From NCBI RefSeq assembly GCF_000585375.1, contig NZ_KK073874.1, positions 8,343,913 to 8,407,912 on the forward strand: a DNA stretch of 64,000 nt. The letters are read 5' to 3'. Source of the stretch: Cryptosporangium arvum DSM 44712. Its GTDB lineage: Bacteria; Actinomycetota; Actinomycetes; Mycobacteriales; Cryptosporangiaceae. Under the pieces are notes generated by a model. That model was not told the DNA's origin. It made no database searches and was given only the letters and a program-made list of their open reading frames with translations. Made by a program: the position numbers and the translations under genes. This document shows, in pieces, positions 18,479 to 24,448 of the stretch; the first letter of the stretch is position 1; every line of letters begins with the position of its first letter.

Positions 18479-19126
18479 TCAGCGCACGATCCCGGCGTCC
18501 CGGGCAAGTAGCGCAGCCTGGACGCGATCGCTCACGTTCAGCTTGTTGAACACTGCGGACATCTGATTACGAATCGTCTTCTCGCTGACGTTGAGGTTGC
18601 GGGCGATCTGCGCGTTGGTGTCGCCCATCGCGAGCCGGTTGACGATCTCCAACTCGCGCGTCGTGAGCTGGTCGAACGGCGGGGGCAGCACGGCCGGGGC
18701 GCGGCGCAGCGCGGTGAGCACCGTCGGACCCACCCGCGGCCCGAGCACGACGCCCCCGCTGGCCACCGTCCGCAGAGCGTCGATCACCATGTCGGGGTCG
18801 GTGTCCTTGAGCAGGAACCCACGGGCACCCGCGTTCAACGCCTTGGCGACGATGTCGTCGTCGTCGGCCATCGTGAGCATCAGCACGGCGGTGTCCGGGC
18901 AGGCCTCGAGAATGCGTCGGGTCGCGTCGACACCGTCCCCGTCGGGGAGCACGACGTCCATCGCGATGACGTCGGACTGGCACGTGATGGCCTCGCGCAC
19001 GGCCTCCTCGACGCTGGCGGCCTCGGCGACCGCGCTGACCCACGGTTCGTCCTCGAGCATCACCTTGAGTCCACGCCGGACCACGGGATGATCGTCGACG
19101 ATGAGGACCCGCTTCGGCTCGTCCAC
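18479..19126 (-). CDS. NarL/DevR-type response regulator, partner of fusion kinase
   Basis: Response regulator of 215 residues. The receiver has the acidic pair DDH at 11-13, phospho-acceptor Asp at about 57 (VIAMDVVLPD) and Lys in FLLKDTD. The LuxR-type helix-turn-helix reads LTTRELEIVNRLAMGDTNAQ then KTIRNQMSAVFNKLNV. The GTG at 19126 has GGGAGG seven bases upstream. It follows the kinase-astacin gene by 41 bases on the same strand and is its evident partner. Targets are unknown; palindromes upstream of the 23138 and 24324 genes are candidates. Confidence 0.92.
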   Translation of the reverse strand: MDEPKRVLIVDDHPVVRRGLKVMLEDEPWVSAVAEAASVEEAVREAITCQSDVIAMDVVLPDGDGVDATRRILEACPDTAVLMLTMADDDDIVAKALNAGARGFLLKDTDPDMVIDALRTVASGGVVLGPRVGPTVLTALRRAPAVLPPPFDQLTTRELEIVNRLAMGDTNAQIARNLNVSEKTIRNQMSAVFNKLNVSDRVQAALLARDAGIVR

Positions 19127-19167
19127 CGGTGTGCCTCCCTGGAACGACCACGCGCCGCTCACCGGAA

Positions 19168-22100
19168 TCACACCACGCTCGTCATCGGGACGGCGACCGT
19201 GGTCGGAGCACCGCCGGTGAGAACAGGGCACGCGGCGGCGGTGACGAGGTCGCCGGTGGCGATCGCTCCGTCGCCGGACACGTCCACGTGGGCTTCCACC
19301 GTGTAGACCGCGTCCGGGTCGACGCCGGTGACCGGCACCCGGAACGGGATTCCGGCGCCGCCGCCGAGCAGGACGTTCGACATCGTCACCTCGCCGACCG
19401 GGCTCATCGGTCCGCCCGTCGTCGTGGTGTCGCGCACGCTGACCACGACCGTGGCGGCCCGGCCGCCGGGCCCGTCGTCCGGGAGGCGCAGCACTCCGGT
19501 GACCGCTTCGACGTCGGCGCCGACCGGCGCGGGGGCGGGCGCGGGCGCGGGCGCGGGTGCGGGGGCGGGTGCGGCACCGGGCGCGGGCGCGGGGGCGGGC
19601 GCGGGCGCGGCGCCGGGGGCGGGAGTCGGTTCGGGGGTGTCCCGGTACATCTGCTCGATCACCCGGCAGTCGCCGTCGGAGAGTTGGCGACGCTGGCCGA
19701 GCGGGAGACCTGCCGGTGGGGTGTGGACGGTGTCGAGCGTGCGCTCGCCGTTGGTCGAGAAGGCCACCCGGGGGTAGTGCATGATCGACTCGTAGTCGTA
19801 GGGGCCGACCTCCGGGCCGACGGCCTGGATGAGGAAGTTCGGCCGGGCCTCGGTGGTGATGTTCTGCCAGTGGATCGTGACGTAGTCGTCGCGGTCGGTG
19901 CGGCAGTGTTCGTGCCAGCGACCGAGCGTGTGCACCATCTCGTGCAGCACGCGCCCCATCTCGCCGCCGGCGAGGATCTCGATGTGCTGCTCACCGCCGA
20001 TGCGGCCGACGCGCGAGGCGAAGGAGTCGCCGAGCACGAAGCGGACGTAGTCGGAGTGGGTGTCGGTCCGCGGGACGAAGCGGATGCGGGTGCGTGTCTC
20101 CAGGTGCTCGATCGCCTCCGCGACGTGCTCCTCCGGCCCGACGTCAGCCGCGACCTCGAACGGCACCACTCCCCCTTCCCACAACCGCACCACCGTCCCC
20201 ACCCCCTCCGCCACCACGTCCGGGAGGAGAGATGGCGTCCCAGGCGCGGGCGCCACGGGTGCTGCGGTCCCGGACGCCGCGATCCCGGGCGCCGCAGAAG
20301 CTGACGCGGACGCAGGCGCAGCAGGCGCTGGCGCGGAAGCAGGCGCCGCAGACGCAGACGCGGGTGCGGGTGCCGCAGACGCGGGTGCGGGCGCGGGCGC
20401 GGGTGCGGGAGCTGGCGCTACGGGAACGGGTGCCGCAGGTGACGCAGGCGCTGGCGCGGGGGCTGCGGGCGCTGGCGTAGCAGGCGCTGGCGCGGGGGCT
20501 GCGGGCGCTGGCGTAGCCGGCGCTGGCGGCGCGGACGCGCCGCCCGGGAGCGCGGGCTGGGCGGCGGGCGTCAGGGCTGGGGCGTCGGCCGCTCGTGGGA
20601 TGGGGAGCGCGGGCGATCGGCGCGCGGGTGTGCCGTTGACGACGGCCGGGGTGGGGGCGGGCGGCTCGACCAGCATCAGCGATGCGGCCGGGAAGTGAAC
20701 CCGCACCGTTGTGCCCGTCGGCTGCGCCGGGACGATCTCGCACTCGCCACCCAGCTCCCCCGCGCGATCGCGCATCGAAGCCAACCCCACCCCGGCCCGC
20801 ACCGGGCCGGTGATGCCGACCCCGTCGTCGGTGACCTCGATCGTCAGATCGCGCCCCCGCCGCACGGTGACCAGGCAGTTGCGCGCCCCGGCGTGCCGGG
20901 TGACGTTGTTCAGCGCTTCGGCCACGACCCGGTACGCCGCCACCTCCACCGCGGCGGGCAGGCGGTCGAGGTCGTCGCGCACGTCGAGCTGCACCGACAA
21001 CGCCGAGCTGTCGAAGCGGCGGCACTCGTCGCGCAGGGCGACCGCGAGCCCGCGGTCGAGCGCGGGCGGGCGCAGCTCGTCGACCAGCCGCCGCACCTCG
21101 GCGGTGCACGCCGCCAGGTCACCGGCGAGCGCGTCGAGGATGTCACGCACCCGCCCGGGCCCTGCGAGCTTCCGCGCGGCACGCACCTGCATGGACATCC
21201 CGGTCAGGCTCGGGCCCAGCCCGTCGTGCAGGTCACGGCGCAGCCGGCGCCGCTCCTCCTCCTGCGCCCGCACCAGCCGTTCCCGCGACTCCTGCAGGTC
21301 CCGGGTGAGACGGCTGGCCTCGACCGCCACCCCGGCGTGCAGCGCGATGTCGGCCAGCAGCTGCGTCTCCCGCGGCGTGAAGTGCCCGCCGTCGGTGCGC
21401 GGCGACACCAGCAACCGTCCGATGTGCTCACCGCGGGAGAGCATGTCGAACGCCTGCACGGTCGGCCCGACCTGCCCGTACCAGGCCAGCAGCCGGGAGC
21501 CGTGCTGCTCGGCCACCTCCACCGCCACGTACGGAACCTGCAGCGAGCTGGCGATCGTGCCGGTGAGCAGCGGCAGCACCGCGTTCGGTTCGGCGGTCTG
21601 ACCCAGCACGTCGCCCATTTCGGCGATCACCTTGTACGGGTCGTGCCGGTCGCCGTAGAGCAACTGGTTGACGCCCTGCTGCACCCGGCGATGCAGCGGC
21701 GCGTACGCGATCGCGATCACCCCGGTGGTGACGAGCGAGATCGAGTCGCCCGAGGTGTTGCGCATGATCACCTCGCGCAACACCGTGACGATCGCGACGA
21801 AGCCGACCACGACGAGCGCGGTCATGACCAGCCAGACCAGCGTGCGGTTGAGCACCCGGTCGAGGTCGTACAGCCCGTAGCGGACGATCGCGACGGTCAT
21901 CCCGAGCGGCACCGCGACGGCGGCGAGCACGTACCCGCCGTCGAGGTTGAAGAACGTGAGCCCCCAGCCGAGCAGCAGCAGCACGACCGCGGGCAGCAGA
22001 CACGCGAGCTGCTGCCGGGTGTCGCTGTCGGCGCGACGCCAGCGTGACCACAGCGCGGCGAGCACGCACAGCCCGGCCGCCACCGTGAGGAACACCCCCA

Positions 22101-22629
22101 CGGCGAAGATCCGGAGCACGAGCTTCGTCGTGGGCGACGGCTCGACCGCGACGTTGCTGAGCAGCGTCCGGGGTTCGTCGGCCGCGACCGCGGCCAGCGC
22201 CACCGTGCTGAGCAGGGTGAGCGCCGCGAGCGCGAGTGCGAGCCACCGCCAGCCCCGGCCCGGTAATCGCCCGTCGGGGAAGAACAGGAGCGCCAGGAAG
22301 AGCAAGCCGTAAGCCGGCCACCAGGTCCACTGGCTGAGCCAGGCGACCGGCTCCCACCGACTCCAGCTGACGGCCACCGCGCTCACCGCGGCACTGGCGC
22401 CGGCCGCCAGGAGCAGCCGGCCGACCAGATGTTTCGGCACGGCGACCAGGATGAGGAGACCCATCGCCGTGCCGGAGATCGCCAGCGCGATGCTGATGCC
22501 CACCGGTCCCGTGTCCGCGTCGGTGCCGCCGTCGAGCTGCCCCACCAGGATCGCCGCGACGACCAGCCCGACGACGAACAACCCCGCGACGGTGCGGGGG
22601 GTGAACCAGGACAGTGAGGGTGAGCGCAT
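19168..22629 (-). CDS. Sensor histidine kinase fused to astacin metalloprotease and YbaY-like domain
   Basis: One uninterrupted 1153-residue frame. About 1-270: seven or eight membrane helices. About 335-445: a GAF-like region. About 455-646: HisKA_3 with phospho-acceptor His 468 (RDLHDGLGPSL), then ATPase boxes EALNNVTRHAG, VTDDGVGI and GVGLASMRDRAG. About 650-810: an Ala/Pro linker. About 812-985: an astacin (M12A) domain with the full zinc motif HEMVHTLGRWHE (His 896, Glu 897, His 900, His 906) and Met-turn SIMHY (950-952). About 990-1038: a second Ala/Pro linker. About 1039-1153: a beta domain like YbaY/YscW (TGVLRLPDDGPGG). Astacins are normally secreted, whereas this one follows a cytoplasmic kinase core. 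The ribosome site is weak. The upstream gene ends 14 bases before. Confidence 0.85.
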   Translation of the reverse strand: MRSPSLSWFTPRTVAGLFVVGLVVAAILVGQLDGGTDADTGPVGISIALAISGTAMGLLILVAVPKHLVGRLLLAAGASAAVSAVAVSWSRWEPVAWLSQWTWWPAYGLLFLALLFFPDGRLPGRGWRWLALALAALTLLSTVALAAVAADEPRTLLSNVAVEPSPTTKLVLRIFAVGVFLTVAAGLCVLAALWSRWRRADSDTRQQLACLLPAVVLLLLGWGLTFFNLDGGYVLAAVAVPLGMTVAIVRYGLYDLDRVLNRTLVWLVMTALVVVGFVAIVTVLREVIMRNTSGDSISLVTTGVIAIAYAPLHRRVQQGVNQLLYGDRHDPYKVIAEMGDVLGQTAEPNAVLPLLTGTIASSLQVPYVAVEVAEQHGSRLLAWYGQVGPTVQAFDMLSRGEHIGRLLVSPRTDGGHFTPRETQLLADIALHAGVAVEASRLTRDLQESRERLVRAQEEERRRLRRDLHDGLGPSLTGMSMQVRAARKLAGPGRVRDILDALAGDLAACTAEVRRLVDELRPPALDRGLAVALRDECRRFDSSALSVQLDVRDDLDRLPAAVEVAAYRVVAEALNNVTRHAGARNCLVTVRRGRDLTIEVTDDGVGITGPVRAGVGLASMRDRAGELGGECEIVPAQPTGTTVRVHFPAASLMLVEPPAPTPAVVNGTPARRSPALPIPRAADAPALTPAAQPALPGGASAPPAPATPAPAAPAPAPATPAPAAPAPAPASPAAPVPVAPAPAPAPAPAPASAAPAPASASAAPASAPAPAAPASASASAAPGIAASGTAAPVAPAPGTPSLLPDVVAEGVGTVVRLWEGGVVPFEVAADVGPEEHVAEAIEHLETRTRIRFVPRTDTHSDYVRFVLGDSFASRVGRIGGEQHIEILAGGEMGRVLHEMVHTLGRWHEHCRTDRDDYVTIHWQNITTEARPNFLIQAVGPEVGPYDYESIMHYPRVAFSTNGERTLDTVHTPPAGLPLGQRRQLSDGDCRVIEQMYRDTPEPTPAPGAAPAPAPAPAPGAAPAPAPAPAPAPAPAPVGADVEAVTGVLRLPDDGPGGRAATVVVSVRDTTTTGGPMSPVGEVTMSNVLLGGGAGIPFRVPVTGVDPDAVYTVEAHVDVSGDGAIATGDLVTAAACPVLTGGAPTTVAVPMTSVV
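19528..19640 (-). repeat. Ala/Pro linker-encoding repeat 2
   Basis: GCGGGC/GCGGGT hexamer-like tandem units encode the Pro-Ala linker between the astacin and YbaY-like domains. Extreme GC and short period make copy number unstable and assembly-sensitive. Confidence 0.7.
20230..20560 (-). repeat. Ala/Pro/Ser linker-encoding repeat 1
   Basis: Short GC-rich repeats, including two near-identical copies of a unit reading GGGGCTGCGGGCGCTGGCGT around 20458-20516, encode the linker between the kinase core and the astacin domain. The frame is kept through the whole tract, which argues that the fusion is real. Confidence 0.7.
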
Positions 22630-22643
22630 CGGGTGCCGTTCGT

Positions 22644-23138
22644 TCAGCTGATCTTGTGCATGAGGTTGTGGAACCAGTTGCCGGGGTCCTGCTGCCCGGC
22701 GTCAGCCGCGGTCGCGGCGTGGGTGACGCCGCTCAACGCCGCGACGCTGTCGAGCAGCGACTTGCCCGTCAACGCCGGGAGCTCGCCGAGCGCCTCGTCG
22801 ACGCTCAGGCCGTAGTCCTCGGAGATCTCGTCCGGGTGCGACGAGGTGTACTCGGCCAGGTACGCGAACACCGCGGCGATCCGCGTCTGCACGGCCGCGG
22901 GGTCGGGCTTCTCGTTGGTCTTCACCAGGCCGCGCAGCGTCCACGTCTCGTCGAACACCGGGGCCAGGCGCTGACCGTCCTGGTCGAAGAAGTCGAGCCC
23001 GCGCGGCGGCTGGAGGTGCACGCCCTCGTGCGTGGCCAGTAAGTCGCTGACGTTGCCGAACAGGTGCGCGAAGCGGTCGTTGACGTCGATGACGAAGACG
23101 GTCTCCGTCGGGGCGGTCTCGTGGTCCGAGATGGTCAC
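22644..23138 (-). CDS. Hypothetical protein of protease/kinase cluster
   Basis: A 164-residue soluble acidic protein with no signal peptide or membrane helix. The N-terminal half is mixed (TVFVIDVNDRFAHLFGNV, LQPPRGLDFFDQDGQRL) and the C-terminal half helical, ending GNWFHNLMHKIS. The GTG at 23138 has GAAGGA seven bases upstream. It ends 14 bases before the fusion kinase, so the two are very likely one transcript, and it may modulate the kinase or its protease domain. I recognise no family. Confidence 0.7.
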   Translation of the reverse strand: MTISDHETAPTETVFVIDVNDRFAHLFGNVSDLLATHEGVHLQPPRGLDFFDQDGQRLAPVFDETWTLRGLVKTNEKPDPAAVQTRIAAVFAYLAEYTSSHPDEISEDYGLSVDEALGELPALTGKSLLDSVAALSGVTHAATAADAGQQDPGNWFHNLMHKIS

Positions 23139-23325
23139 CGGATGTCCTTCACACTGTGGATGGAGCGGGTGCTCCGTCGATAGGTCAATGGTGGGGTATG
23201 CGGGACGGTCGGCGCGCACGAGTGAGGGCCGAGATCCCCCTCGGATCCCGGCGCCCACCCGAGGACGTCGTCCTCACCCGGCCCCCCAGCTCTCACGTCC
23301 GCCGGCCCGCGGAAGTTCGCGCCGC
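23139..23325. promoter_or_regulatory. Gap with candidate promoter and palindrome
   Basis: Between the Nal1-like gene and the 164-residue gene. It contains GAGGACG-T-CGTCCTC (23261-23275), a perfect palindrome around one base, and a TTGACC hexamer on the minus strand near 23190 that could be a -35 element for the downstream kinase operon. Both are inferred from sequence only. Confidence 0.35.
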
Positions 23326-24324
23326 TCAACCGTCGGTGACGCGAACCGCCAGCAGGGACTGGACGGCGACGATGTTGTTCAACACGCTGACCCGGCCGGA
23401 ACCGGCGAACAGCAGGCCCACGGCGCCCTCGTCCGGGTCGGTGACGAGGCTGCCCGAATCGCCGCCGGCCGACATGTTCGTCGTGACGATCTGCTGGCCG
23501 AACCGCGCGATCCGCCCCCGGTCGTAGTGCACGTCGACGGTCACGTTGACGTTGAGCACGTAGCCGGTCGTGAAGTTGGTGGTGCGGCCCCACTTCTGCA
23601 GGGTGTCGTTGATGTTCGGCTTCGGGTTGAGCGTCGTCACCTCGCCGGCCCAGTAGACGCGGCGATCCGTGCCGTGCACGCCCTCGGCGATCGCGGCGTC
23701 CACGAAGTTCACCGGCTTGCGCCGGCCGTCGTGGAAGTGGATCGGAACGAAGCGCACCAGCCGACCGATCACGTCGGCCGGGTAGCGACCCCCGTCGACC
23801 AGGGCCGGCTGCAGCACCGGATCACCCGAGCGGCCGGCGTTGCAGTCGGCGAGCGCGTAGTTGGTGCTGAGGATGTAGTAGCGGCCGGCGTTCGGCTCCA
23901 CGTCGAAGCACCCGGCACCGAACGTACCGGCGTTGCCGCGGAAGTGGCCGACGCTGACCCCGGCGAACGCGGGCCGCACCCGCTGGCCGAGCTGGAACGG
24001 CCCGACGCCGAGCGACGCGGTGGCGCTGCCCCGGTCGGCCCAGGGCTGCGGGCCGCCGCCGGCGCGGATGAGCCCGACTTCCTGCACGTCGGTCGGGATG
24101 CCGTCGAGCTCCGCCGGGACGAGCGCGGTCGGAGCGAGGTAGCGGGCGTCGACTTTCCGGTGGACCAGGACGGTGATCGCTCGTTCGCCGGTGTTGATGC
24201 CACCGCTGTACCGGTGGCCGAGACCCACTCCGACGACGTTCGGGCGGCCCAGCAGGGCGTCCTGGTACTTGGTCTGGGTCTCGACCAGAGGAAGGAACTC
24301 TGTCCGGACGACCTGGGGAAGCAT
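23326..24324 (-). CDS. Trypsin/Nal1-like protein, catalytic His replaced by Tyr
   Basis: A 332-residue protein without an obvious signal peptide. About 10-80 resembles the N-terminal domain of Nal1-type proteins (VVGVGLGHRYSGG, IPTDVQEVG). The rest is a trypsin-like fold with the nucleophile motif GGDSGS (Ser 290) and the Asp of NFVDAAIAEG (Asp 209). At the place where relatives have LSNNHVLA it reads LSTNYALA, with Tyr 156 instead of the catalytic His. It is therefore probably a pseudo-protease or uses another base. The ATG at 24324 has GAAGGGA upstream. It heads the leftward cluster containing the kinase-astacin fusion. Confidence 0.75.
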   Translation of the reverse strand: MLPQVVRTEFLPLVETQTKYQDALLGRPNVVGVGLGHRYSGGINTGERAITVLVHRKVDARYLAPTALVPAELDGIPTDVQEVGLIRAGGGPQPWADRGSATASLGVGPFQLGQRVRPAFAGVSVGHFRGNAGTFGAGCFDVEPNAGRYYILSTNYALADCNAGRSGDPVLQPALVDGGRYPADVIGRLVRFVPIHFHDGRRKPVNFVDAAIAEGVHGTDRRVYWAGEVTTLNPKPNINDTLQKWGRTTNFTTGYVLNVNVTVDVHYDRGRIARFGQQIVTTNMSAGGDSGSLVTDPDEGAVGLLFAGSGRVSVLNNIVAVQSLLAVRVTDG

Positions 24325-24409
24325 TGCGGTCCCTTCGGGGGAGAACCGAATGGCGACTACGTTGCTCTCCACCTTGGTGGGTCCGCTGACCCGGTCGACA
24401 GAGACGCCA

Positions 24410-24448
24410 GTCCCGAGTACTCGGGCACCCTGCCCGGACACTCGGGAC
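24410..24448. promoter_or_regulatory. Nested inverted repeats before the Nal1-like gene
   Basis: CCCGAGTACTCGGG at 24412-24425 is a perfect 14-bp palindrome. Its left part, GTCCCGAGT (24410-24418), is also repeated inverted as ACTCGGGAC (24440-24448). Three copies of the half-site CTCGGG thus lie about 90-125 bases upstream of the ATG at 24324. Candidate operator; the binder is unknown but could be the NarL-type regulator of the cluster. Confidence 0.45.

Follow-up and report, generated by a model that had tools for sequence, protein, structure and literature searches.

The window analysed here is a stretch of 64,000 nucleotides from Cryptosporangium arvum DSM 44712 (contig NZ_KK073874.1, positions 8,343,913 to 8,407,912), whose genome (G000) is assembled as one contig of 9.2 Mb. 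On the minus strand of the window, an open reading frame (ORF) running from 22629 to 19168 (ATG at 22629, TGA at 19168-19170) encodes a protein of 1153 amino acids that joins a membrane sensor histidine kinase to an astacin zinc protease and a YbaY-like C-terminal domain. The parts of this fusion protein, from the N-terminus, are listed here.

21670..22629, minus strand: membrane sensor part, residues 1-320, with eight clear hydrophobic segments and two shorter ones seen by eye (8-10 transmembrane segments; Kyte-Doolittle windows, loop charge)
21310..21639, minus strand: residues 331-440, between the membrane part and the kinase, no Pfam match, labelled GAF-like by eye
21058..21255, minus strand: HisKA_3 dimerisation and phosphoacceptor domain, residues 459-524, with His468 (Pfam E 4.8e-15)
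20683..20946, minus strand: HATPase_c, residues 562-649 (Pfam E 4.2e-11); all four fused proteins keep the N, G1 and G2 boxes
20191..20676, minus strand: Pro/Ala-rich linker (residues 652-813), whose length ranges from 34 to 170 residues across the four genomes
19642..20190, minus strand: astacin catalytic domain, residues 814-996, with HEMVHTLGRWHEHCRTDRD at residue 896 and the Met-turn SIMHY
19522..19641, minus strand: second Pro/Ala linker, residues 997-1036
19171..19521, minus strand: YbaY/YscW (pilotin)-like beta domain, residues 1037-1153, from a Pfam match below the cut-off and a Foldseek match to 5wec

Both kinase domains are above the Pfam cut-off in the window protein, and the Pfam Astacin match (residues 817-995, E 5.2e-39) scores 134 bits (cut-off 22.5). 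The fused astacin has the full catalytic motif HExxHxxGxxHExxRxDRD, with the zinc motif HExxHxxGxxHE at residues 896-907, as well as the SIMHY Met-turn within YDYESIMHYPR (944-954). When solved structures were searched by sequence, crayfish astacin came out on top (E 7.8e-31) and DesK-type kinase cores followed after the astacins (E 4.8e-11). An AlphaFold model of residues 812-1153 (mean predicted local distance difference test score, pLDDT, 72; below 50 in the last 34 residues) matched proastacin 3lq0 in Foldseek (E 4.5e-17). A preliminary description made from the letters alone had proposed a kinase and an astacin in one frame, and a complete kinase and all astacin catalytic motifs indeed lie on a single chain; its residue numbers for His468 and the zinc motif are correct, and the Met-turn that it named is present. 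Zinc-dependent endopeptidase activity of the astacin and autophosphorylation and phosphotransfer by the kinase are putative.

Our genus-restricted search covered four genomes (G000 to G003), and in all four the astacin lies within the long stop-free frame of the kinase (1177, 1004, 1171 and 1098 codons, respectively). The fused proteins are 1153, 999, 1140 and 1090 amino acids long, with linkers of 162, 34, 170 and 117 residues. Each of them retains an intact H-box (RRDLHDGLGP), N-box, G1 and G2, as well as the zinc motif together with its R-x-D-R-D and the Met-turn. Identity within the genus is 91-95% for the kinase core, 87-97% for residues 331-440, 75-85% for the astacin and 63-77% for the end domain, and the linker sequence is poorly conserved over its five-fold length range. 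The ratio of nonsynonymous to synonymous substitution rates (dN/dS; Nei-Gojobori, four genus genomes) is 0.066-0.100 in the kinase core, 0.20-0.42 in the astacin and 0.25-0.41 in the end domain. The same fusion in four of four genomes, combined with low dN/dS, shows that the arrangement is not due to chance. The preliminary description had named a frameshift near 20.68 kb as a finding that would speak against the fusion and had proposed to look for the same fusion in related genomes; it is present throughout the genus sample, and four open frames, each with a different linker length, exclude the frameshift. We conclude that the fusion is a genuine, conserved domain architecture, undescribed as far as searched. 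An internal translation start yielding free astacin was considered as well and rejected: GGAGG near in-frame GTG codons just before the astacin domain occurs in G000 only, and G001 to G003 have no ribosome site in the linker.

Outside the genus, we found the astacin without the kinase. An astacin match was detected in 30 of 394 class genomes, at full strength in four (G000, G576, G595 and G662), of which G000 alone has the fusion. A GTDB scan with the astacin part, from which records of the genus itself may be excluded, gave 20 loci. No kinase-core match was found around these 20 loci, around strong standalone astacins (16 records, 10 genes) or around 33 weak matches; the flanks were 1.5 kb for most loci, so that a distant kinase would escape and a fused one mostly would not. 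As a control, the same search gave a match in nine of nine kinase loci. In agreement with the preliminary description, which knew of no described kinase-astacin fusion, none was found in the titles and abstract openings listed from the open PMC literature, with subscription papers and domain-architecture databases outside the search. In the parts seen of two eLife papers (PMC7159879, PMC8195603), astacin occurs only in a cited title, and the part seen of a paper on SCO6992 (PMC9705864) reports a matrix metalloproteinase (MMP)/astacin-like domain that is not presented as a kinase fusion.

On which side of the membrane the protease lies was assessed from hydrophobicity and loop charge. Eight Kyte-Doolittle peaks are common to all four fused proteins, with two weaker segments seen by eye; the number of membrane segments is even and arginines lie mostly on the inner loops (mostly positive-inside). 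After residue 283, no hydrophobic peak is common to the four proteins except for a weak one noticed by eye near 297-312, N-terminal to the kinase. The G002 linker has two stretches rich in Ala and Val that reach hydrophobic scores, but the other three proteins do not share them. The N-terminus is a multi-pass sensor and not the signal peptide of the full astacin architecture. This topology suggests that the fused astacin lies in the cytoplasm, and the shared segments, the inner-loop charge and the lack of a later shared segment thereby support the cytoplasmic protease of the preliminary description. Its premise that astacins are secreted agrees with the extracellular enzymes with a prosegment described in part of a review (PMC9848320); as a statement on bacteria it is too general, since four standalone actinobacterial astacins (L001, L087, L090 and L091) have N-termini without an obvious signal peptide, read by eye only.

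The fused astacins also differ from most standalone ones in two features, a prosegment motif and a cysteine pair. According to the part seen of the same review (PMC9848320), animal astacins are kept latent by an FxGDI prosegment and myroilysin by a cysteine. We scored 30 standalone loci, 10 strong ones from the order and class scans and 20 from the GTDB scan, leaving out weak matches; the loci are partly dependent, as L079 and L080 look alike and L014 and L015 come from one genus. A loose prosegment motif (E/Q/D-x-D/C-hydrophobic, 105 to 145 residues before HExxH) was found in 24 of the 30 (four with C; L081, at 159, excluded) and in none of the four fused proteins; the strict form [EQD]GD[IML] was found in 16 of the 30. 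A cysteine pair before the zinc site is likewise present in 24 standalone loci (6 of 10 actinobacterial, 18 of 20 others) and in no fused protein, with a single unpaired cysteine in this stretch of G003. The NCBIfam LegP profile (NF045530) matches the fused astacin over positions 56-243 only (173.6 bits, cut-off 300), whereas the standalone L090 matches over 7-243, and L090 and the standalone paralogue in the window genome score 296-297 bits. The prosegment of the standalone L077 was modelled by AlphaFold with a pLDDT of about 55. Together, the missing motif, the missing cysteines and the topology fit a protease adapted to the reducing cytoplasm.

Two side observations concern standalone astacins. 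The window genome carries a second, standalone astacin (L014:4177-5763, minus strand) with an FEGDI motif and no obvious signal peptide, and with a relative in G003 (L015). In four others (L065:5653-6543, L092, L019 and L020), the D of the prosegment motif is replaced by C (FEGCI, HDGCI, HEGCI); these may be cysteine-switch astacins.

The fusion is flanked by two closely spaced genes on the same strand.

18479..19162, minus strand: NarL/LuxR-type response regulator (Response_reg E 3.2e-25, GerE E 8.9e-17)
22644..23138, minus strand: partner gene U204, 14 nucleotides upstream of the fusion (ORF 22644-23258, likely GTG near 23138)

The regulator likely starts at a GTG 5 nucleotides past the fusion stop codon (ATG there in G001) and is 93-96% identical within the genus. 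U204 has no family match in Pfam or NCBIfam; it is present in all four genus genomes and lies upstream of the kinase in all eight loci examined from another family of the order (f15). The gene order MFS, MFS, SGL, NAL1-like protease, U204, fusion, regulator, then VTT and NlpC/P60 is the same in the three other genus genomes, where the compared G002 stretch stops inside one MFS gene. The NAL1-like gene (window 23326-24441, minus strand), two genes upstream of the fusion in all four genomes, has a GDSGS motif by eye and 26.9 bits in Pfam, just below the cut-off of 27; a trypsin-like gene likewise lies downstream of the standalone astacin in L087. The NAL1-like protease is a possible candidate for an activating protease.

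Kinase matches with E 1e-110 or better were found in at least 19 of 397 order genomes (4 of the genus, 12 of f15 and 3 of the family f14), a lower bound, as three candidates were scored per genome. Identity to the fusion kinase is 54-59% in f15 and 39-40% in f14. Astacin matches were obtained in 17 of 397 order genomes, which we take to be the same 397, and none of the 15 outside genomes with the closest kinases is among the 17. Eight of these 15 loci, all from f15, were examined directly; for the other seven, the assessment relied only on frame length and the astacin search. In the eight, nothing matches past fusion residue 665, and a fuller G018 locus agrees; hence no astacin follows these kinases. 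The regulator lies downstream of the kinase in six of them, while L100 ends early and L103 has none in the stretch examined. A split, two-gene version in near relatives, which the preliminary description had considered as evidence against a fusion, was looked for in the 15 outside genomes with the best kinase matches and did not turn up; since the relatives with a bare kinase come from different families within the order, and no astacin match was obtained in their genomes, they do not represent a split pair. From these comparisons, U204, kinase and regulator are most likely an older operon to which the astacin and the end domain were added in one genus. G002 (C10:295847-296788), which also has the fusion, encodes the membrane sensor part a second time, in a frame of 453 codons and with 63% identity over residues 17-337.

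By family profile, the end domain stays below the cut-off. PF09619 (YscW/YbaY) covers residues 1041-1147 with 15.2 bits (cut-off 22.6, E 0.028), and 20.2 bits in the own-genome search, also below the cut-off. Foldseek matched the domain to a Vibrio cholerae pilotin (5wec, E 1.1e-4) and a type III secretion system pilotin (2yjl, E 0.016), using a model with a pLDDT of about 60-77 there and below 50 in the last 34 residues. The YbaY-like domain of the preliminary description thus gains support as a pilotin fold. It is C-terminal and internal to the cytoplasmic tail, with no lipoprotein signal.

Elsewhere, separate genes for the two added domains occur side by side. Two genomes, G662 (L090) and G595 (L091), have a run of genes on one strand that encodes a standalone astacin, then an ATP-grasp peptide maturase and then a YbaY-like protein. 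The ATP-grasp protein is MvdD/MvdC-like (TIGR04187 best, under the model cut-offs), the YbaY-like protein of L090 exceeds the Pfam cut-off of 22.6 with 24.2 bits, and the end domain of the fusion is 30-35% identical to the separate YbaY-like genes of both loci. In G392 (L088), only a small gene lies between the astacin and YbaY-like genes, all on one strand. Among the 10 strong actinobacterial astacin genes, no YbaY-like match was found beside L014, L015, L087, L092, L019 and L020 in the stretch examined. A YbaY-like alignment search, partly circular as its query rows came from G000-G003, G595 and G662, matched six genomes out of 296 of the class, namely G000 with the fusion, G662, G595, G512, G576 (a weak match, 1.3 kb from an astacin on the other strand) and G515, where no astacin or ATP-grasp match was found in the 3.3 kb searched. 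With this circularity, the neighbouring genes in L090, L091 and L088 hint that the astacin and the YbaY-like domain are functional partners. Two further observations concern the cassettes. In G512 (L108), a YbaY-like gene lies beside a short ATP-grasp remnant and an SGL-like gene (by eye), apparently a decayed astacin cassette. In the cassettes L090:4445-6992 and L091:4680-7245, the astacin tail repeats T-x-K-E-x-x-K/R-D (five times in L091, by eye); the tail may be a substrate of the ATP-grasp ligase, with the protease itself as a graspetide-like precursor. No paper combining graspetides and astacins was found in the open PMC literature, and the part seen of a graspetide survey (PMC8939145) mentions metallopeptidases, but neither M12 nor YbaY.

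Tentatively, and short of calling it probable, we favour the reading that the fusion is a membrane sensor histidine kinase whose own chain also provides a second output, by proteolysis. The sensor part would detect a signal and the kinase would phosphorylate the NarL-type regulator. The astacin, in the cytoplasm and tethered by a flexible linker at the inner membrane face, would cut a local cytoplasmic target, and the pilotin-like domain could dock a partner or a substrate peptide. Either the protease would need no zymogen switch in cis, or the kinase assembly would restrain it. The signal would then be read out twice, by regulator phosphorylation and by local cutting, with U204, the regulator and the linker itself as candidate targets. 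A tether is preferred over a rigid lever because linker length ranges between 34 and 170 residues and its sequence is little conserved.

Several points weigh against this reading. The sequence lends no support to a coupling between kinase state and protease; this also goes for the mutual control suggested in the preliminary description, and the five-fold length range and poor conservation of the linker speak against mechanical coupling through it. Evolution is faster in the astacin (dN/dS 0.20-0.42) and the beta domain (0.25-0.41) than in the kinase core (0.07-0.10), and the carriers are four genomes of a single genus. Of the 30 standalone astacins, 6 lack the cysteine pair and 6 lack the loose prosegment motif, so that neither loss alone proves a cytoplasmic role.

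Somewhat unlikely, in our view, is that the two-component system is itself the target of the protease, which would cut the linker, U204 or the regulator and thereby end signalling or release the protease with a free N-terminus. In part of the review cited above (PMC9848320), cleavage liberates the N-terminus of mature astacins, which binds to the glutamate that follows the third histidine ligand of zinc. The fused domain keeps this glutamate and has no free N-terminus unless it is cut; the linker is long and Pro/Ala-rich, and U204 accompanies the kinase in all 4 genus genomes and all 8 outside loci. However, conservation is lacking immediately ahead of the astacin domain, so no shared cleavage site is visible, and U204 (8 of 8) and the regulator (6 of 8) also accompany kinases without an astacin, so that cutting is not generally needed.

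That the kinase stands in for the lost prosegment is suggested by the motif count (none of 4 fused against 24 of 30 standalone proteins, scored loosely) and by the LegP profile, matched from position 56 in the fusion and over 7-243 in L090. A receptor in which the kinase replaces the prosegment and the intracellular astacin stays latent until a stimulus or phosphorylation, giving one receptor with transcriptional and irreversible proteolytic outputs, seems unlikely; we know of no intracellular, kinase-gated astacin described before. The version in which the kinase holds the astacin latent, a stimulus or the phosphorylation state releases it and the protease is the main output is less likely again, and against it stands a linker of 34-170 residues with little conservation, which gives no fixed geometry.

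More doubtful still is a passenger fusion, in which the host tolerates the extra domains and makes little use of them. Their faster evolution relative to the kinase core and their restriction to one genus would fit, but the catalytic motifs are intact in all four proteins, dN/dS is well below 1 and the frame is open in four species. An unusual topology with the C-terminal part outside the cell is highly improbable: 5 of 10 bacterial astacin frames (GTDB loci, Pfam) do have partner domains of an extracellular type, the other 5 being astacin alone, but no shared hydrophobic peak separates kinase and astacin, the kinase needs ATP and the cysteine pair is absent. An assembly or annotation artefact, a frameshift inside the GC-rich and repetitive linker DNA, is next to impossible, being refuted by four separate genomes with the same in-frame fusion and unequal linker lengths.

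If the reading as a sensor kinase with a proteolytic output is true, the conserved astacin on the kinase tail would represent a secreted type of protease turned into an intracellular signalling output, with two-component signalling and proteolysis joined within one chain. This suggests a bacterial signal receiver that carries its own cutting tool inside the cell. The short version in G001 (999 amino acids, 34-residue linker) makes the reading testable with one protein.

Compared with NarL-type HisKA_3 kinases of the NarX, UhpB, LiaS and DesK kind, the fusion has in common the HisKA_3 and HATPase_c core, the multi-pass membrane part and the adjacent NarL/LuxR regulator, and it differs in the protease and pilotin-like domain that follow HATPase_c; its best NCBIfam kinase score (113, against a cut-off of 700 for MctS) is far below threshold. 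The catalytic domain is like that of astacins (M12A), with crayfish astacin and proastacin as the top solved structures, but it sits behind a kinase and lacks the signal peptide, the FxGDI-type prosegment and the cysteine pair. Standalone bacterial astacins of the LegP type (NF045530) match in the catalytic part, whereas their first 55 profile positions are unmatched in the fusion. Like the YbaY/YscW/ExsB/AspS group, the pilotin-like domain matches 5wec and 2yjl in fold, but it lies in a cytoplasmic tail and is not a lipoprotein. The astacin, ATP-grasp and YbaY cassette of L090 and L091 contains the same two domains, but there they are separate genes with an ATP-grasp gene (TIGR04187/MvdD-like) between them, the astacin keeps an EGDI motif and no kinase-core match is present in the stretch examined, whereas in the fusion both domains are carried on the tail of a sensor kinase.

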